Origin: Scatophagus argus
Taxonomy: Eukaryota; Chordata; Actinopteri; Scatophagidae
Direction: 5' to 3'
Assembly (NCBI RefSeq): GCF_020382885.2
Contig: NC_058508.1
Span: 7,866,055 to 7,930,054, forward strand
DNA length: 64,000 nt
A program made the position numbers and the translations under genes. Under the pieces are notes generated by a model that was given only the letters and a program-made list of their open reading frames with translations, had not been told where the DNA came from and searched no databases. How positions within the stretch are numbered: position 1 is the first letter of the stretch; each line of letters begins with the position of its first letter. This document shows, in pieces, positions 16,436 to 31,290 of this stretch.

Positions 16436-18328
16436 ATGGAGAGGAAAAGAACATCATCGAGATTCAAGTGCGAAGAAGAACAATATACGGACAGGAGAAT
16501 TAATCCAAGGGGTGGAAAGAGAGTCAGATATACTGAAGATTACAGTGATTATGATGATGAGGTGGAGCTGGACGATGAGTATGAGGATGAGGACGAGGAC
16601 GAGTACGAGGAAGACAATGAGCAACCAGGTACTTCCACCCAGAACACCCACAACCAGAGAAGACAAGAAACTAGTAAGTCTTTAGAGCCATGTGATAGCA
16701 CCCACATGGTGTTTTTTTTTCTCTTCTTCACTGAACTGCAGCTAATGAATATGCTGGAAGTTAACTGCACAACTCTTCTGTGGCAATTTTTACACAATGT
16801 AGGACTCTTGACTGTAACCTGTGGAAACAAAAAGGGCATCCTGGATATAGAGAAGCTGGGCAGGGGTAAATAATAGCATCTAATTGATCAATTTACTTCA
16901 TAATTCATAAATAAGTAAGTATAAGTATCCCTTGTCCCTTTCCTTTATTGTGTCTAATCTGTGTTGCTGTACGGGGATGCTCTGTTTAGGAGAGGAGTGT
17001 ATCCAATGTCAGGACTGCTGGTTTTCTCCCCCTGCCTTCGAGGAATTTGGAGGGAAAGGCTCTTCTAAAAAATGGAAAACCAGCATTTTCTATGACAATA
17101 AGCCTCTGCAGTTTTTGTTTGAGGTATGACTATTTGGTCCCTTATACAGAATGTACTTGTCTTATTGTCTTGTCTTATTAAATATATTCAGAACAAACAC
17201 TGAATTAACTACCTAACTACCATGTCACTGTTATCACAGCAAGGTTCTTTAACCACCAAGGGATTTAAAAGGAGGAGCACTACAAAGGTGAATGAATGTT
17301 AAAGTACAATATGATACTGATTTTGGAAAACAAATCCATGCAGCTTTCATAGTAATGATGAGTCTTTTTTGTCTTTATTCTCCCACCAAAAGAAAACCAC
17401 GTCATCACGCGGCACATCAGAGAGCTCCTCTGAAGGTTAGTCTGCACTTTCCTCTAACTGCAACTTCAACCAGGATTAAAACAACAATAAGCACAGTGCA
17501 TGCCAAATTAATATTAGTCAGTTGAGATGACTTACTGCTTGGTAATTAATGATTTGCTGAAGAGTACATATTATTATATCCCTGTCAAAGTGTCAGAAAT
17601 ACAGTCTGCAGAGGAAAATGAGGACGATGATGTTAAAGATGAAGACTGGCTTCCAGGCAGTGAAGAATTGGTACTGGAGACAGAGGAAGAAGGGGTAGGG
17701 ACTGCACATGGAGGAGAGGTTGTAGACTCAGGAGTTGACACGAGTAAAGAAGAGGAAGATCAAATGGAGGAGGGAGAAATGGAAGATGAGGATAACGGCA
17801 GCAATGTTTTTGAAGGTGATGGAATCGTCACCTGTAGGAATACTGCTATTGAAATGAATGTTAGCATGTTAGGTTAGCATTTCTTTGTGGATGTATGAAC
17901 ATCATTCTTCTTCTTTCAGAAAGGGAGACCAAACTGATCATTTCAACACCTGAGAAAAGTGCTTTGCAGAAGCAAGTAAAAATCGTCATCAAAAGGCTTC
18001 CAGAGGTAAGACTTCTAGTCAAGTCAAATTCATCTATATAGCCTAAAATTACAGATCAACGTCTGAGTGAGTTGTCAGCTTGGCTTTGGCTTCAAAGATT
18101 TGGTACCAGTGAAGTTGGAGAATTTTATGTGTAAACCTTGGATTTGGATTAGAGGACATCACCTGACATGCTACGGCCTGACAAATTACAGTTTAAACAT
18201 AGTCAATCTAAGTAGACTGCAGAGGGCCCAATATTTTTAATATTTAGGGCCAAATTAAACAGGGTAGAGGTTAGGCACTTGGGTCACTTATTCTTCTCTG
18301 GACTGGGTTCCACACTGATGGATGGATG

Positions 18329-18394
<66 letters not shown>

Positions 18395-20078
18395 CTTAAG
18401 ATATAAAAGGTCAGGCTGTCCAGCTCTGTGCCCACAACAGAGCCCGCTTTACTCACCAGTTTGTCCAGACGTGAGGCGTCCTTCTTTTTGATGCTGCCTC
18501 CCCAGCACACCGCCGCATAGAAGAGGGCGCTCGCCACAACAGTCTGATAGAGCATCTGCAGCAGCTTTGTGCAGATGTTGAAGGACTGGACTTTTAAATG
18601 TACATAAGGTAGAAAAGAGGAAAAGAGAAACTTTTCTTTTTTTTTTGCATTTGATCCATTAGAATTTTATACAGATTTTGGTAGCACATCACAATTGTGA
18701 CTTATTATGCAGGAAGTCATTGCTGTCATTCATTCATTCATTCATTCAGGTGACCTGTAGTTCTTATGAATTTTTCATTCTCTTAATTGTTGTTTCAGGA
18801 AAAGACTGATTTTTGGTCCAACTGCAGCAAACATAATACACAAGGTTTGTACATGTACAATTACAGAGTAGTCGCACTACTTAAGCAAACAGAAGTTTAT
18901 TAGTGTGTTTAATGAGGGGTGATGCTCGCACCACATCCTTTACTGCCTTTATGCTTGTTAATCTACAGATGTGAGAATGTGAAAGACCAAAGTCAAGAAA
19001 TCTAATTCCACAATATTATTTTGTTTTGTAAGAAGTGATTCTTTTCTGTAACCTCAGTTTTATTTGTGAACAGACAGCTGGTGTAAACCATTGGATGCGG
19101 ATGCACTAAATGAAGAGAAAAGCCAACACAGTGTCTGTGCAACAGATGACTCCTCCATCACAGCGTCCACAAACACTGATCCTTCATGGGTGTCAGAACA
19201 GCCTACTGTTGGAGGTGCTGAGGAAGAAAATAGAGAGGAGTTCACACAAAGTGATGACAGAAAAGAAGATAGACAGAAAGAAATTAAAACTAAAACAGAG
19301 AAGTCTCTAACACTTCCATTTGCACCAGAAATAACCTCATCCCCTGAAATCAAACCTGAAACTAAGGATATTGGACCAACCAGCAAGCACACCGCCTGCC
19401 TCACTTCCTCCTCTGCTCTACAGAAAACACAGAGTCAGCAGATTATAGATTCCAAAGACTATGAAAATGCGAATGATGAGCATGCTGACATGTCAATATC
19501 TGAAGCCAGTGGACCAGTTTCAGAAAATGGAAATATCAGCGCTGCCACATCACCCATACAGAGAAGTATTAAGGAGGAAAGCATAGAGGCAATGTGTAAG
19601 CTGCTCAGAAACCATAAGAGAGGGAAGTTCATGTTTTCTTTGTAGACTCCAAAAACACATTTGAAATTTAAATACATGTGTTTTCTACTAATTGTACAGA
19701 TGGTGGTGCTGCCAAGAAATCCCTGAGTGGGCTGGTTGACTGTGAGAACACAGATGCCTCCAACTTTGGCCATGATGTAGCAGGATTAAAAGCAGTGAAG
19801 CTAGTGGTGAGGTGCGTTCTAACTATCACGTTATTTAAATAAACAAAGATGCCCAGTTTGCATGCAAGCTCTTTAAGGGATGTACTCTCTACAGGGTTCT
19901 CGAAGCAAGCCAAGCCTCTGACGCGGTGGAGGCTCCATCCTTTGGGCCCTCCACTAGCTGTGATCTGGACACAATGGACCTTGATCAGCTGAGGAGAGAG
20001 AAACTAAAGATGCAGATAAAAGTCTTGAAGTTACAAGAGGAATACTACACTCAGAAAATAAAGGATAATAAAAAATGA
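16436..20078 (+). CDS. Single SAND-domain protein with acidic linkers and C-terminal coiled coil
   Basis: Eleven exons in one frame give 566 aa: 16436-16673, 16803-16865, 16990-17123, 17240-17287, 17393-17435, 17591-17815, 17920-18005, 18799-18844, 19074-19595, 19700-19811, 19895-20078. An in-frame TAA directly precedes the ATG. The N-terminus is basic, then very acidic (about residues 40-64). The SAND domain spans about 82-155: VTCGNKKGIL, then EECIQCQDCWFSP and a KKWK motif in place of KDWK. Its core exon is 134 nt, as in both SAND domains of the SP140-like gene. Exon 6 encodes another acidic linker. The C-terminal exon ends in a charged coiled coil (DLDQLRREKLKMQIKVLKLQ). No HSR, PHD or bromodomain is present. 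A nuclear DNA- or chromatin-binding role is inferred from SAND. The exon-2 acceptor (AATGTAG) is the least certain junction. Exons 9-11 are duplicated at 25.9-27.8 kb. Confidence 0.82.
18319..18394. repeat. (GATA)n microsatellite
   Basis: GATG units followed by about 16 GATA units in intron 7 of the SAND gene. They abut the LINE fragment that follows. Confidence 0.95.
18410..18590 (-). mobile_element. LINE reverse transcriptase C-terminal fragment
   Basis: Read on the minus strand the segment encodes SFNICTKLLQMLYQTVVASA followed by LFYAAVCWGGS and DKLVSKAGSVVGT. This is the recognisable C-terminal part of a widespread fish non-LTR reverse transcriptase. It is truncated at both ends and lies inside an intron. 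The piece at 25947-26241 carries the next part of what looks like the same family. Confidence 0.8.
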
Positions 20079-22987: not shown

Positions 22988-23165
22988 TGAGGCTGTTGAT
23001 TTTGTTGGTCTAGCTTGCTCTTTTATTATTATTTTCATTACAACAACAACATCTCTATTTGCGCAATTAGCGCACTGCTCCCTCCTGTCGGAAAGCGGTC
23101 ACGAAACGCCCATCTGTGCTGCCCCGGACTCGAAAGGGTGATGCAACGGGGTGGGAAAATCGCAA

Positions 23166-23176
23166 TGCATTATGGG
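23166..23176 (-). promoter_or_regulatory. Inverted half of the ZNF143-type motif
   Basis: TGCATTATGGG is the exact reverse complement of the 3' part of the motif at 22859-22878, and lies 100 bp upstream of the THAP-like start codon. The ACTACA half is not conserved, so binding is less likely than at the first site. Confidence 0.3.
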
Positions 23177-23265
23177 CTTTGCGGGTAACTGAAAAGTGTG
23201 CTTACGCCAGCTGTATGCATGATGCTGCTTTTGTGTACTGTTGTTTTGTTTCAACAAGTTAAAAC

Positions 23266-23327
23266 ATGGTGCCAGCGTGCTGTGTCGTTAACTGCCACAT
23301 GATCGCTTCGGTAAAACAAACCATCGG
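23266..23327 (+). CDS. Orphan THAP-like first exon
   Basis: ATG opens a 62-nt segment ending in GG|GTGAGT. It encodes MVPACCVVNCH and ten more residues, resembling the N-terminus of THAP zinc-finger proteins (C-x2-4-C start of the C2CH finger). No continuing THAP exon with the second Cys-His pair was found before 24.8 kb, and joining it to the exon at 24845 gives an early stop. It may be the remnant of a lost THAP gene or an upstream exon with unknown partners. Confidence 0.3.
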
Positions 23328-23820
23328 GTGAGTTTTTTTTTCTCATTTCCTACGCGCAAACAAAGCCAAGTAGCTCGGATCTGTGAGCTAACGAGGAGAC
23401 GCCTAATGGCCTGAGTAGCAGCCGTGGGACGACCAGACATCACTTTGTGTTGGTTGGCATATGTTGGTGTGTTCACGACTGGTGTTGTGAAAATAAAATG
23501 AATGGCTGTTGATCTTCCTCTGCTTATTTCTGTTTATCCGTAACATGTCATTGATATGTCAGGCACAGGAAAATCTCCTCATCTGCTACTTGCTAATATG
23601 GCGACATACACCAGGCCTGCACTTTACAAAGAAAGTTAATAAAACTATGCCTGATGGTGATAATAAATATTGTAGTTCACTAGCAGTATATGAAACTATA
23701 TCCCAACTACTTTAATTGAGCCATAAGAAGTCCTCTGTGAGACCATGCCATTTACTCAAGCAATAATGTCTTCTTGTTTCAAAGTTTTGAGTTCAGTTTA
23801 TTACAAACATTCTTGTGAGA

Positions 23821-23861
23821 AAAGCACACTTTAGATCGGCCCGCCATCTAAAGTGTGCTTT
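23821..23861. repeat. Perfect 16-bp inverted repeat with GC-only 9-nt loop
   Basis: AAAGCACACTTTAGAT (23821-23836) is perfectly inverted at 23846-23861. The spacer is CGGCCCGCC. It lies about 130 bp upstream of the putative untranslated exon end of the next gene. Confidence 0.95.
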
Positions 23862-23889
23862 GAGTTTTGGCCCCCTGCACTAGAGGATA

Positions 23890-23995
23890 CCTACACACAC
23901 GTGTGAAGGTACGGCGCAAGCCGGCGGCGTTAATTTGACAGCTCCCACTTGCCAAAGAGAAGCATAGGCTGTAGTTCAGGATTGTTTTTAACAAG
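23890..23995 (+). other. Possible untranslated first exon of the third gene
   Basis: A CpG-containing stretch (GGCGCAAGCCGGCGGCG near 23912) is followed by a consensus donor at 23996. Splicing to the acceptor at 24843-24844 would place two nucleotides before the ATG at 24847. The start of the exon is not defined by the sequence. Confidence 0.3.
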
Positions 23996-24846
23996 GTAAG
24001 ATGAAGGTGCGTAGTTGACATATATTTCTCATAGTGGCTTTTGTGTTTTACGTTGTCTGGAAGTGCTGTCATGTTGATTACATTTTCATTTGGAGAGCCG
24101 AAGGATGAAGTGCGATACAGTTAGCCCTTTTAGCATTTAGCTTGGCAGCTGGCTCACAGGCTAGCTTAAGATTAATGTTTGCAAGAGTTGAGTAGACTAA
24201 GCCTTGGCTGATGTTAAGTCTGACCCGTGCAGTAGCAGCATGAACGCAACACGGACAGGTCAGTGGTGGACTGTGGACTCTACATTTAGTGGTGCTGCTG
24301 TTTTTGTAGTAGTTTTATGCATTACTACAACAGCACTCACAAGCCTGCAGAAACGAGAGATTTACTGTATACTGCTGGCTAAACCATGAATTGCATTTTT
24401 TCCAGTGTATTCAGCTCAGGGCTCACTTCTTTATAGTCCAAAAGGTGTCTGCTGCCCTTTATTTGGCTGATATTCATGCAGTTTACATGTTGAATAGGAC
24501 TAAATACGGATCATTCACTCTTTCAGATCACAAGTTGTTTTCATTATGCAATAAGTGCATCACAGTTACAGTCTTAATTTTGTTACAATTCTGCATTGAT
24601 GAGAAGGGTTTCTACAAGAGAAATAACCATGTTTGTTTTCCTTTGTCCAAAAGCTCCTGTTATTACCCACCATCGTTATCCCTGTTACTTCTTGCCATAC
24701 CTCTTTTATTAAAAACCCAGCAGCTCAAGTAAGTATTGCTTTTATATTGTTCAAATCTCATTGTCTCACTGATCAGTGTTTGTTTAAATTAAAGAAGTAC
24801 TTCTGTCTCTCTGTCTCTGTCTTGTCTTACTACATCTCGGATAGAT

Positions 24847-27771
24847 ATGCCGAGCAATGGGTCAACAACTAAAAAGTGTGTGTTTTGCCACACACGACTA
24901 AGCGTAGCCTGCAAGACCTGCAAGACAGAGCAGCCAGGTAAGCTGAGGCTCAAAAGAAAAATGAACATGTTCGATCAGCAGCGGGAGAACTGAGTCCATA
25001 CCCACCAAAAAAATCGGACCACCTCTCATATCCGGGATGAGGCTTATATGCAATTACTTTTGTCTTTTTTATGCTGTTCGGTATGCAAATGTTGCTGTAT
25101 ACATTTTCATATTAATATCTTCTGCTCTCATTTTTTTGTGTGTTCCCTGTTTTTTAGCATTAAAAATTGCAGGCCCTGAGAGTAAAGACTATCTTGCTCA
25201 AGTCAACGCCTGGAAGAAAGCATCAAGTACATGTCTACAGAGAATGAAGGACGTCTATGATATTGTTGTTTATGGTAAGAAAAAGCTTTTGATTGGAAGG
25301 CTCTCACCCCTGTTACAGATAAGGGTGTTGTTTCCTTCTCTCATCTAATGGAGAGGACACATTAACATTGGTGCATTTAGTGTTCAGCTAACTGGGACAG
25401 GTAAAAAGTTCACCGGCTGGCTGTTTAGCTGCTTATGTTGTTCAAGTATTATAAAAATAACTGTGTAGTAATTGCATCTGCTTGGTCTGGAGAAGTGACA
25501 CAACAAACCATGCAGTCCTTTTTGTGCCTGCTAAACAGTTAAAGGGCAGTTGTAAAGAACTGGCTGGTGCAAGACTGGCTAAATGCTAGACCTTTGCTAA
25601 TGTAAGTTAAAGCTGCAATTTGTGTGTCATAGTTTCCCATCTGTGCTGCTAGTCACAGTGACAGATACAAGTTTTGTTGGCAACATGAAAGGTTGGTATC
25701 AAATCAAGATGTAATAGCTCCTTCAGTAGATCTCAAGCAAGATTTCAAGCATTTGTTTTAAATATTTGTATTTATTTGACATTTTATCCTCTGTAAAGAC
25801 AACCAGGAGGAGAGACAAGAAACAGGATGCTGTGGAGAGAAAGAAAAAGAAACGAGGAGAAGAGAGATGGAGACTGAAATACAGAGACAGCTTTCCATGT
25901 CAAGATCTGAAGTCAGAGGTCAGTCCTTTGCAACTGGAAATATCAGAATCAGAATCAGAATTCCTTTGTTTATGCCCGAAGGGAAATTCTTTCGTACAGA
26001 CATTGCACTTGCAGTTTTCTTGAACAAGAAAGAAAAGTGAAAGATATAAAAATACAATGAACAAAAACAAGATAAGTATAAATCTAAAAATACAGGTATT
26101 TACATGTGTGAAACAATATATACATTGTATATATAAAAGTGTGTCCGTCACAGTGCAGAGTTTAGCAGTTTGATGGCGACAGGCAGGAATGATTTCCTGT
26201 GTCGCTCTGTGGTGCATCGTGTCTGTCATCGAGTCTGTCTGTATCAGTGATGACAACTCAAAGACATCACCCATACGGAGAAGTATTAAGGAGGAAAGCA
26301 TAGAGGCAATGTGTACGCTGCTCACAAACCATAGGAGAAGGAAGTTCATGTTTTCTTTGTAGACTCTGAAAATGCATTTGAAATTTAAATACATGTGTTC
26401 TACTAACTGTACAGATGGTGGCCCATCCTTGAGTGGGCTGGATGAGTGGAAGAGCACAGATGTCACCACCTTTAGCCACGATGCACCAGAATTACTCCAG
26501 ATGAGGTTAGAGACAAGGTAAGGTCAAACAGTTATGGCTGAATAAACCGAGATGCTTAAAATCTATGACTAACATATATTTAGTATATTAAGGAAAAAAC
26601 CCTCATATCATATATATGTATATTGGGGTGGGACTATAACGCGTTAATTACTATTAATTAATTACAAAGGGTAGCAGTTAAAAATGTAATCGCAGTTTCC
26701 ATTCCAGACAACGCGGAACGTTTGTCAGTGCACGATTTCCTGGTACACCGATTACACTGATGTGCACGGCACGGCACGGCTAACGGCTACAGAAATGGAG
26801 GAATCTGATGAAAGTGCGCTGCTAGGACTGATGGAAGGCAAATTTTATTTCAAAAAACTACCTGATGGAATCCTTGATAAAAGCGTGGTTTTGTGCAAAT
26901 TTTGCAAAAAAGAGTTTGCATACCACCGAAGCACTTCAACTCTACGGTACCATCTAAACGCAAAGCATGTTGCAGCGAGCACAGAAACCGCTGGAGCTGT
27001 TAGCGCTACAAGTCCCGATCCGAGAACAAAAAAAAGGTGTAAGAGGTAAAAAAAAAAAATAAATAAAAAATGTTGCTTTTGGGGCAAATATTGTTATGCG
27101 ATTAAGTGAGATTAATTAATTACAAAGCCTCTAGTTAATTAGATTATTTTTTTAAGTCCCACCACTAATATATAAATATATACAGAGTGATCCAAAATAA
27201 TGTATACACGTGTACACCATTGTGTACAGACTGATGTGTGTATACGTTATTTTGGCTCACTCTGTATACACACACACACATTTATCATGCCATAACTGAT
27301 AAACAAAATTGGTTTTCTTTTAAATAATAAGTTTAACACTCATATGACCCCCTAAATATCTGATTTGCACTGGCACAAAGTACGTTATTGATAGAATTAA
27401 TATTGCTTTGAATGTAGTGGTACAGGCGTTTATGTATCATGTTGTATTTAGACATGTTGTTGTTGTTATTATTGTGCCTACTAATCACCACAATCAATGA
27501 GTCTTTAAAGCTGTAAAGGAAGTGCTAACATTCCACATCAATAGGTTCATTTGCACGCAAGCTCTTTAAGGGATGTACTCTCTACAGGGTTCTCCAAGCA
27601 AGCCAAGCCTCTGACGCGGTGGAGGCTCCATCCTCTGGGCCCTCCACTAGCTGTGATCTGGACACAATGGACCTTGATCAGCTGAGGAGAGAGAAACTAA
27701 AGATGCAGATAAAAGTCTTGAAGTTACAAGAGGAATACTACACTCAGAAAATAAAGGATAATAAAAAATGA
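24847..27771 (+). CDS. Chimeric gene: Cys-pair N-terminus joined to duplicated SAND-gene tail
   Basis: Exons 24847-24937, 25158-25274, 25799-25918, 26415-26517 and 27588-27771 join in frame to 204 aa. The N-terminus has paired cysteines (KKCVFCHTRLSVACKTCK), a small zinc-ribbon-like pattern; exon 2 encodes ALKIAGPESKDYLAQVNAWK. From about 25902 onward the DNA is homologous to exons 9-11 of the SAND gene, but the SAND domain itself was not copied. A LINE at 25947-26241 interrupts the exon that begins at 25799. Reading through gives a TGA at 26038-26040 and a 149-aa product. A GTCAGT donor at 25919 allows splicing to 26415 in frame and bypasses the LINE; the other copy lacks this GT. Function is unknown. 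It may be a functional chimera or a gene now decaying. Confidence 0.45.
25947..26241 (-). mobile_element. 5'-truncated LINE 3' end, antisense, with target-site duplication
   Basis: On the minus strand it encodes the reverse transcriptase C-terminus (RCTTERHRKSFLPVAIKLLN, then a stop), followed by about 200 bp of 3' UTR and a (TCTGAT)n-type tail at 25947-25960. TATCAG at 25941-25946 and 26242-26247 is the likely target-site duplication. The insertion lies in sequence that is coding exon in copy A of the duplication. Confidence 0.8.
26625..27165. mobile_element. Non-autonomous hAT-type element fragment (ZBED family)
   Basis: The ends carry GGTGGGACT (left) and AGTCCCACC (right) as short terminal inverted repeats, with TTAATTAATTACAAAG repeats just inside both ends. 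Only an N-terminal BED-finger region is retained, and no transposase catalytic part follows. An 8-bp target duplication could not be fixed because the flanks are TATA-rich. Confidence 0.75.
26762..27049 (+). pseudogene. BED zinc-finger fragment of a hAT transposase
   Basis: A 95-codon frame encodes KFYFKKLPDGILDKSVVLCK followed by FCKKEFAYHRSTSTLRYHLN and AKH. This is a BED finger with C-x2-C and H-x4-H, as in ZBED1-like fish hAT transposases. It stops soon after the finger, so the catalytic domain is absent. Confidence 0.75.
27179..27268. mobile_element. Small foldback/MITE-like element
   Basis: 31-bp arms (left 27179-27209, right 27238-27268) match at 29 of 31 positions in inverted orientation around a 28-bp spacer, flanked by TA. 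The arms begin TACAGAGTGA(T/G)CCAAAATAA. This suggests a miniature Tc1/mariner-type derivative. It sits in the last intron of the chimeric gene. Confidence 0.55.
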
Positions 27772-27869
27772 AACTTCTTTGGAGTCTGATTGTACAGCTG
27801 ATGATTGCAGTAGGAGGATGAGGGTGTTTACAGGTGTACAAGAGTACTGCTGTCAAAGCGCTGCCAGTC

Positions 27870-28245
27870 CTCCGAAGTAAAAATGCTTTCGGCTTTTGGG
27901 GAGGAAAGGAAATCACTTGAAAATGTCACACATAAACCTAAAACATATCCTTGTTCTGTCTTTGACTCATATTGGTATTTGTTGATGGAAGCAGGTTTTT
28001 TTTATTTGTGCAGAACATAAACAAGCTTATGTAAAACTGCAGTCAGTCATCTTGTAACTCAAGTGCACAAATACAGTATAGAGTCCTTTAGTTAGAAGGG
28101 AACAAACTGATTTACTTACCCAACACAGTAATTATGGTAAGAAACAGTATAGCAGGTTACCCCAGCTCCACGTGTTTACAGTTCGGTAGTGCCTTATTTT
28201 CTAAGAAAGATACCATATCTCCAGGATCAGAAGAAAACCAAGTCA
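27870..28245 (+). repeat. Downstream part of the duplication, copy B
   Basis: Collinear with 21636-21975 through several conserved patches. It marks the 3' end of the duplicated block before ccdc97. Confidence 0.65.
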
Positions 28246-28374
28246 GCAGCTCAGCTGAGTCAATTCCTCTAATCGTTCATGTCTGGTGAAGTTCTCCTGT
28301 CAGTGATGAACTATAAGAACCATATAGCTTAGTGGTATCATTTCAGTACAGATGGAGGGGAAAAAAGAGGCCTA

Positions 28375-28380
28375 TTTATT
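28375..28380 (-). terminator. Polyadenylation signal of ccdc97
   Basis: AATAAA on the minus strand, about 110 nt beyond the stop codon. Confidence 0.6.
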
Positions 28381-28489
28381 TACTACCAGCTACATTTGCA
28401 TTTGTGTATTGAAAACATTGAAAAATAGAATACATACCATTATTTTGCACATTTGTATTTACAGTTCATTCAGAGTGCCATTACACAGT

Positions 28490-31290
28490 TTATTCTGTCA
28501 TGTTTTCTTCCTCTTCATCCTCTACCTCCTCTTCATCATCTTCATCAAAGTATTTATCCTCCGCATCTCTGCTGACTATGTCCAAGTTGTCATAGTCTGG
28601 GTTCTCATCCACCTCACTGTAATGGACACACACACACCCTTTTAAAAGCAGCACAATAAGTTTGGCTACATATGTTTGAACTGATGTCTTCTTAACTTTA
28701 AAACCGTCTTTGTTCTTTTCGAAAAGCCTGCTCAATTAAAGTAATTTAATTTAAATTACTTTAAATCCCCAAATATCCATCACAGTTCACTCTATGATGT
28801 TTATTACACTGTTCAATGTAAGGGTAATACAAATACAGCCTTTATATGCAATAAAAGCCTATTGGGTGGTGTTGTCCCTGACCTGTAGTTGAAATCTTTG
28901 TCTTTGCCATCGAGGAAGCGCTGGTGCATCTGGCTGATGAACTCCTCCCTGAGCAGAGCCTTCTCCTCTGCGGTGGGCTCCTCCTGCTGCTGCTGGACAT
29001 AATTAGCTACAGCAAGGACACAGAGAGATGTGGTGACTGACAGAGCGGAGAGGGAAGCAGTCAGAGCACAGACACTTTATACTTTATTCATTTTGTTGCT
29101 TGGCCCACTCTTACCATCGTCTTCTTCATCCTCGTCCTCCTCCTGTGCTCCCTCCTCTCTCTCCTGCTCCTCCTGCAGACGATTCTGGATGAGATGCTCC
29201 TGGTAGGAGTTGAGGAGGAGGTGGGCGAGCCCTCCTGTACCTCCCTCTGGTGCCCCCTGTGCGTTATCTTGCATGGCCTCCTGGGAACGCTCCAGGACCT
29301 ACATTAGTCATTCAGAAATTACTAAAAAAACAAAAATTAAAAAAACTGAACTGTTAATTATGAAATAAATCTAATACAAATCGAAGTATAACAGCACTAC
29401 ATCATGCCCTCACCTCCTCATCAGTCAGATACTGGCCAATGTACTGTTCATACAGCAGCGGCTGCCTCATTCGCATCTGTTCCTCACTGAAATAGTGACC
29501 TTCTGCAAGAGGAATTAAGGCAGTTCATATACTTCATCAGTTATCCAGTACAAACTACAAGATTACCAGAGATGGTGGTGTAGACTGTAAGAGGAGCTGC
29601 AAATATCTCAGCCATAGATACACATAACCTCACCAAGTAAAACCAAAACTATCTGCCTGGTACCATTGGTGGCAAGTGGAAAACGTAATATAATATAATT
29701 TGTGTAAACTAACCCTTTATCAAAAAAGCCTGTTCTAGTACTGGAATCATGTTGCTTTGCAGCACCATGTAAGAAGGTGATTTACAGTCATTTTAACACA
29801 GCTATGGTCAAATAAGCAAGGATTATTCAAAGCAGAGCCTGGCTTATACTAAGAGTTTGGACAATTCTTTTACTTAAGCTATTGCATTTTGGGGAAAATG
29901 TCTCTACCCTTCTGCAGGGCCCTGAGGGCGGCATAGCGCTGGTTTCGAACCCTGGTCTTGTTGGTACATGCTGCAGCTCTCCTCTGGATCACTTTGCTGT
30001 AGTGCTGAGCCCGCGGATCAGAGTGGACATGGGCAAATGCTTGCAGGTCCTGGGGTTTGAGCCAGGCCTACAGGGTACAGCAGATAACATAAGGAAATAT
30101 AGGTTAGCGCAAAAAAACTATTTATAATGTGATTATGTTGCAGCTGGGGTAAATCCCTTTCCCATTTGACTGTGCTTTCACATTTATAGCAGTAAGCAAT
30201 TTTCCTAACACAGAAAGACTAACAACTGTCACTACAGCTGTCTCCAGCTTGACTGGTCTGGTTCTGAGAGGGTTGCTACTGAGATGCAGTTCAGTGTGCA
30301 AGAATTAAGTTTTGTCCTTGTATGCAGCCAACAGCTCGTCTTCATTTTAATCTGGGAACTGCCTTTGTGTGATGGTGGGGCATAAAGGGCAGCTTGTGGA
30401 ATAAAAACAACTAAACATATACGTAAGTATTAATAACACCTCACACTGAACTTAACTGACTGTTAAAGCTGAATAGTACAGCAGTATCCAAAGATGGATC
30501 CTTGGGACATTTCACTGAATAATCACACCTGTATAAGGGCCCCTTTCAGCCACTGACCAGAACACAAATCCGTGTGCAAATAAACGTATAGACATATTGA
30601 GCTGTATACACATACATGGTACCTCTCCAGGAACACCAGCGGTCTGCTCCTGTACTGATGCAGTAGCTCCTCTCTGCGCTCCTTCAGGGTCAGTTCAGGC
30701 TCTCCTATCTGCTGGCTCTTCACTGGACTCCCACTCTTGGCAATGGCTTCTACCATGTCACTCACACAAGCGGACTCTGCCTGGCTCTGGTCCTGTATGA
30801 TAGAAGACGGATAGTAGACAGAAGCACATTAAGGCGGAACGATAGCTGGAAGTTACCAACAGCAGAGCTTAGTGGGCACATATGTTAATTATAATTACAC
30901 AGCTAATGCTGCTGGTGCTGCAGATCTCACCTGGGGTTCTTGCTGTGGCTTCTGAGTATCAGCGGATCCTTTTGAGTCATATCGCCGGAACCGTATCACC
31001 GGTTCTTCTTGTAATTTACTCCAGTCTTCACTCTCACACGAACTTGGTTGTGTTTGAACGGGAGGGTCAATTTCGCCCCACATAATTTCTGTGTTAGCCA
31101 ACGTACTGACGCGTTTCAGTGTAAGATAAGCCTTAACGTTTTCTGTACAGGCTGTATTTTCACAGACACCAAAAAAGAGCTCGTCTTGATTTGGTGTGAA
31201 CGTTCTTACATCAAAAATGTAACTTTAACCAACCTTAATTTTACACATCCGTTCCACCTTTAACTGCTTTGCAGAATGTTTGGCCGCCAT
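28490..31290 (-). CDS. ccdc97: Coiled-coil domain-containing protein 97
   Basis: Eight exons, listed 5' to 3' on the minus strand: 31290-31230, 31088-30931, 30792-30616, 30067-29908, 29502-29414, 29298-29115, 29006-28883, 28616-28490. They give 359 aa, close to the mammalian length. Diagnostic phrases shared with vertebrate CCDC97 include [49 protein letters not shown] and [10 protein letters not shown]. Two glutamate/aspartate-rich runs lie near residues 240 and at the C-terminus. CCDC97 is reported to associate with the SF3B part of the spliceosome; that is outside knowledge, not visible here. Exon 1 uses donor G|GTTAAA at 31229, needed for frame. A downstream ATG at about 31082 is a possible alternative start. 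The ATG sits inside a YY1-type motif. Confidence 0.95.

Follow-up and report, generated by a model that had tools for sequence, protein, structure and literature searches.

The window analysed here is a stretch of 64,000 nucleotides of the Scatophagus argus genome, in which two related genes lie in tandem. The upstream one, gene 1, is a SAND-domain paralogue; its neighbour, referred to below as the LINE locus, is a "CVFC" gene, intact versions of which are found in butterflyfishes and sea breams. A first-pass annotation of the window had proposed for the LINE locus a five-exon model encoding 204 aa, in which a possibly new splice donor would bypass a LINE inserted into a coding exon. The main features are as follows:

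16436-20078, plus strand: gene 1, SAND-domain paralogue, LOC124073275 (isoform X5, P0009), whose predicted proteins match the queried tail
24847-24937, plus strand: exon 1 of the 204-aa model, with a CVFC-type N-terminus, ending at the donor CAG/GTAAGC (24938)
25158-25274, plus strand: exon 2, the first part of which is read outside the conserved frame in the 204-aa model
25799-26312, plus strand: cassette exon in its ancestral extent, now with the LINE inside, running from the acceptor at 25799 to the homologous donor GTACGC at 26313
25919-25924, plus strand: GTCAGT, the putative phase-1 donor of the first-pass annotation
26415-26517, plus strand: exon 4, with a phase-1 acceptor, homologous to the gene 1 exon 19700-19811
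27588-27771, plus strand: last exon, which is also the end of the predicted S. argus isoform X2 (P0010)

The insertion of a LINE was confirmed, and its anatomy can be read directly from three adjoining segments:

25941-25946, no strand: TATCAG target-site duplication, left copy
25947-26241, minus strand: LINE 3' end, 295 bp, 5'-truncated and antisense to the gene, reading RCTTERHRKSFLPVAIKLLNSAL up to a stop, followed by 3' UTR sequence and a short tail repeat
26242-26247, no strand: TATCAG target-site duplication, right copy

The insert is 295 bp long and flanked by two TATCAG copies, as had been described, and the exon of gene 1 carries the homologous site uninterrupted, with a single TATCAG against two at the LINE locus; the LINE does, as proposed, break into sequence that is exonic in the paralogue. 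A target-site duplication is thus present at both ends of the LINE, although it is only 6 bp long and its ATCAG resembles the LINE tail repeat. On the minus strand, we read an unbroken 23-codon end of an ORF, a 3' UTR and, as a tail, a short repeat of the GATTCT type, i.e., a 5' truncation with an intact 3' end, and we take the segment to be the 3' end of a fish LINE. With 24500-28500 as the query, no second copy of the LINE was found in the window. Two further claims held when recomputed: reading through exon 3 meets a TGA at 26038, and leaving out the insert together with one duplication returns an open exon. From the LINE to the FMFSL stop, 5 of 32 codons differ between the two paralogues, all of them by replacement and none synonymously.

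To appreciate the state of the rest of the locus, one has to look at its relatives. The CVFC proteins P0024, P0025, P0029, P0031, P0032, P0033 and P0035, as well as the isoform P0030, have in common an N-terminus of the form MPS(Q/N)GSTTK(K/R)CV(V/F)C and a stretch rich in proline; their tail is the one found in the locus. Their genes, among them those of Chelmon rostratus (LOC121621303), Chaetodon auriga (LOC143334409), Sparus aurata (LOC115575732) and Acanthopagrus latus (LOC119013649), have the N-terminal module and C-terminal tail seen in S. argus, to which the butterflyfish genes add the shared cassette exon; they are, however, open across modules that are broken or lost in the S. argus locus. 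Two features of the 5' half come to light in this comparison:

24991-24993, plus strand: TGA that interrupts the conserved reading frame of exon 1
25633-25688, plus strand: remnant of the relatives' next exon (SFPSVLLVTVTDTSFVGNMK), the 5' part of which was not found, unused in the first-pass model

All exons on both sides of the LINE had been described as open. This is true only if exon 1 ends at a new donor and exon 2 is read partly out of frame; the conserved frame is interrupted by the TGA at 24991 and a TAA at 25161 and suffers a loss of 52 nt. All 16 relative rows that cover the TGA site have Trp there, and all 19 that cover the TAA site have Glu, while the net 52-nt deletion, a frameshifting one located after the residues GRK and just before 25223, concerns an 18-residue block kept in 20/20 aligned relatives; these rows, which represent 20 of the 22 matching relatives (the two not aligned, P0041 and P0052, also have Trp at the 24991 site), are not independent, several being isoforms of one gene. 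As for the proline-rich exon, residues 130-283 of P0025 gave no match in 23001-28500 at E values up to 1; from residue 284 onward, P0025 matches the remnant at 25643. Set against intact relatives, these disabling lesions are such as a unitary pseudogene or decaying duplicate would show. They also weigh against the idea that the LINE is a young polymorphic insertion and that a single damaged allele was sequenced of a gene that is intact on other haplotypes. The identical 6-bp duplications and the unbroken 23-codon LINE end speak for youth, but one and the same allele would have to combine two nonsense codons, a frameshift and the loss of an exon, which makes this scenario extremely unlikely.

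The 204-aa chain itself (24847-24937, 25158-25274, 25799-25918, 26415-26517 and 27588-27771) is open, and GTCAGT at 25919 is in phase 1 and joins 26415 in frame, as the first-pass annotation had it. It owes its openness to the strong donor at 24938, which bypasses the first nonsense codon, and to an out-of-frame reading of exon 2 that ends where the deletion restores the conserved frame. About 22 exon 2 residues lie outside the conserved frame in this model, and the relatives' exon 1 coding sequence extends beyond the equivalent of 24938, as far as DEAYML. The chain was rejected as a unique solution: when donors from 1.44 bits upwards were admitted, we counted 13 open chains, 7 of them without exon 3, and at a cut-off of 3.0 there were 4, of which 2 did without it. 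When the locus was shuffled, a five-exon open chain appeared in 0 of 400 shuffles and any open chain in 18 (cut-off 1.44) or 6 (cut-off 3.0), a whole-chain test that overstates the surprise because shuffling ignores and erases the inherited exons and their phases.

With 3.62 bits, the donor at 25919 scores higher than any other GT in exon 3 and falls within the range of the gene 1 donors (-0.16 to 6.24 bits, nine of ten scored), the natural gene 1 donor at 19596 having -0.16 and, in the LINE locus, 26313 having -3.5 and 24938 having 7.16; all of these scores depend on the matrix used. The GT found here against GA in the paralogue was borne out in codon register (GGT CAG versus GGA CCA in gene 1), a gapped nucleotide alignment placing the comparison at another position. 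Several relatives have Gly at this codon, as seen at the protein level, where the third base is hidden. When the 148 nt preceding the LINE were shuffled 2000 times, a phase-1 donor scoring at least as well as 25919 turned up in 110 cases; for the 242 nt that reach to the TGA, the count was 117 out of 2000. Judged on its sequence, 25919 is a plausible cryptic site, and not one that would be improbable by chance.

No protein returned by our searches carries exons 1-4 of the 204-aa model (0/54), although the collections searched may miss S. argus products. Among these 54 proteins, 12-residue words of the S. argus exons 1-4 are limited to short conserved ones in P0032 and P0041, and the two S. argus proteins among them share such words with the 204-aa model in the last exon only. 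The 204-aa product gave no Pfam match and thus no SAND domain, versus PF01342 in P0010; the Pfam search of gene 1 pieces returned nothing useful. A live gene in which 25918 is spliced to 26415, omitting the LINE part and yielding the 204-aa protein, and in which another new donor, 24938, bypasses the exon 1 nonsense codon, would account for the open five-exon chain, for its absence from all 400 shuffles and for two donors that score well under the matrix used, 25919 above both 19596 and 26313. We, nevertheless, deem it unlikely, as the out-of-frame residues of exon 2, the lack of a returned protein with this product, the avoidance of exon 3 by 7 of the 13 open chains and the occurrence of an equally good phase-1 donor in about 6% of shuffles all count against it. 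A serial rescue, in which splicing at the new donors 24938 and 25919 would have made a reframed 204-aa gene out of a copy already hit by the LINE, a frameshift and two nonsense mutations, and the 52-nt deletion would have restored the exon 2 frame, strikes us as very unlikely.

The exon that received the LINE is, moreover, one that some relatives do without. In C. auriga, the predicted SAND isoform X2 (P0023) equals X1 (P0019) minus exactly the homologue of the LINE-bearing exon, the stretch from DDREGREETGHCG to SIEAMC being replaced by G; this exon is, therefore, a phase 1-1 cassette. It is absent from the sea-bream CVFC proteins P0031, P0032, P0033 and P0035 (all four seen) and retained in a shortened form in the butterflyfish CVFC proteins P0024, P0025, P0029 and P0030. 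Since the cassette can be skipped in a relative, no new donor is required in S. argus, where the junction from 25274 to 26415 is in frame and open, with phase 1 on both sides. The LINE might then be tolerated by skipping of the whole exon in a gene still translated in some form, a possibility with the C. auriga isoform and the sea-bream proteins in its favour; we find it improbable, as the lesions of exons 1 and 2 would persist unless the 24938 donor were used and no such S. argus protein was among those returned.

Gene 1 has the cassette exon, exon 4 and the last exon in common with the LINE locus, from which it differs by its SAND N-terminus, by the lack of a LINE in the exon and by the existence of predicted proteins; over the queried tail, P0009 and P0010 match at 100% and 99%, respectively, and the SAND domain (PF01342) was found in P0010, its isoform X2. 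Its cassette homologue ends at the GTAAGC donor at 19596, and both predicted isoforms read EAMYGGAAKK. An alternative in which the paralogue's exon ends at the FMFSL stop was ruled out, EAMYGG in both S. argus isoforms and EAMSDML in P0001 fitting the donor at 19596. The two isoforms end differently: X5 (P0009) uses gene 1's own last exon, while X2 (P0010) joins the gene 1 exon 19700-19811 to 27588-27771, so that, in this predicted model, an intron of about 7.8 kb takes in the LINE together with exons 1-4 of the LINE locus. The terminal exon of the locus may, thus, serve the neighbouring gene 1.

The last exons of gene 1 and the LINE locus are the same at 182 of 184 nt (98.9%), both differences being protein-changing. 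Upstream, exon 4 (26415-26517) and its gene 1 counterpart (19700-19811) are 76.5% identical, gaps left out, and the short intron preceding them 90.4%; this patchwork of identity suggests either gene conversion around exon 4 or fast change within it. We also compared, over 42 residues of the last exon, the SAND and CVFC versions of each species: they agree at 41 residues in S. argus (X5 versus the X2 exon), Chelmon and Pagrus, at 37 in A. latus and at 36 in A. schlegelii, C. auriga being omitted as its SAND model is without the first part of the exon. Between species, the CVFC version of Pagrus agrees with that of either Acanthopagrus at 41 residues and the two Acanthopagrus versions with each other at 42. 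The likeness within a species clearly exceeds that between species in only two of the five pairs, and gene conversion is therefore no general rule; for the last exon of S. argus, these sequence comparisons make it likely.

Taken together, we regard the LINE locus as probably a decaying tandem copy. Its terminal exon would still work for gene 1, with the LINE intronic there and 25919 being a plausible cryptic site. The ancestral gene would have resembled those of the relatives, with a CVFC-type N-terminus, a proline-rich exon, the cassette exon still seen in butterflyfishes and a coiled-coil-like C-terminus. The S. argus copy would then have come to its present state, with exons 1 and 2 each interrupted by a nonsense codon, the frame shifted by a deletion, the proline-rich exon undetectable and the cassette exon holding an antisense LINE with a truncated 5' end. 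The insertion was presumably of little cost to the locus, either because it struck a gene that may already have been failing or because it landed in a skippable exon. The surviving terminal exon would be spliced from the gene 1 exon 19700-19811 across some 7.8 kb, the LINE being intronic in that transcript. The first-pass alternative of a recent insertion or a rescue by a new donor, thus, stands as regards a LINE in sequence that is exonic in the paralogue; its second half loses its point, as the exon is a cassette that a relative skips and the 5' half carries lesions of its own in addition to the LINE. On the sequence, a rescue by a new donor at 25919 would be possible, and it is not needed. 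A locus that resembles a rescued gene when a single sequence is considered turns into a decaying tandem copy once relatives are compared and, if the predicted X2 is real, the last exon of a dying gene would have been kept as an alternative 3' end of its neighbour.

The nearest parallel we can point to is the mouse Atp7a Mo-ca allele, for which an 81-bp L1 in exon 10, aberrant splicing and an in-frame loss of 10 amino acids are reported (PMC6466679). As in the S. argus locus, an antisense LINE fragment lies in a coding exon with an in-frame splicing bypass; unlike it, the altered splicing was reported in the mouse (PMC6466679), whereas here the bypass is possible only on paper. In the portions of the literature available to us, no matching case was found for a teleost precedent or for the gene family.

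Other features of the window are worth recording. The intron before the last exon of the LINE locus contains a BED zinc-finger ORF at 26795-27046 (Pfam zf-BED, E 3.9e-10), probably from a DNA transposon; GAG/GTAAAA at 27046 is a putative phase-2 donor in frame to 27588, and its use would give a BED plus coiled-coil protein. The C-terminal tail MDLDQL..EKIKMQ.KVL.LQEEYY is found behind varied N-termini in fish, namely SAND, BED finger, Tc5/CENP-B-type helix-turn-helix and CVFC, as in P0002, P0006, P0007, P0010 and P0025, with P0006 and P0007 being isoforms of one Sphaeramia gene. Finally, an intron of gene 1 (about 18400-18620) holds an antisense stretch, LLQMLYQTVVASALFYAAVCWGGSIKKKDASRLDKL, beside a GATA repeat; this stretch resembles part of another LINE reverse transcriptase.
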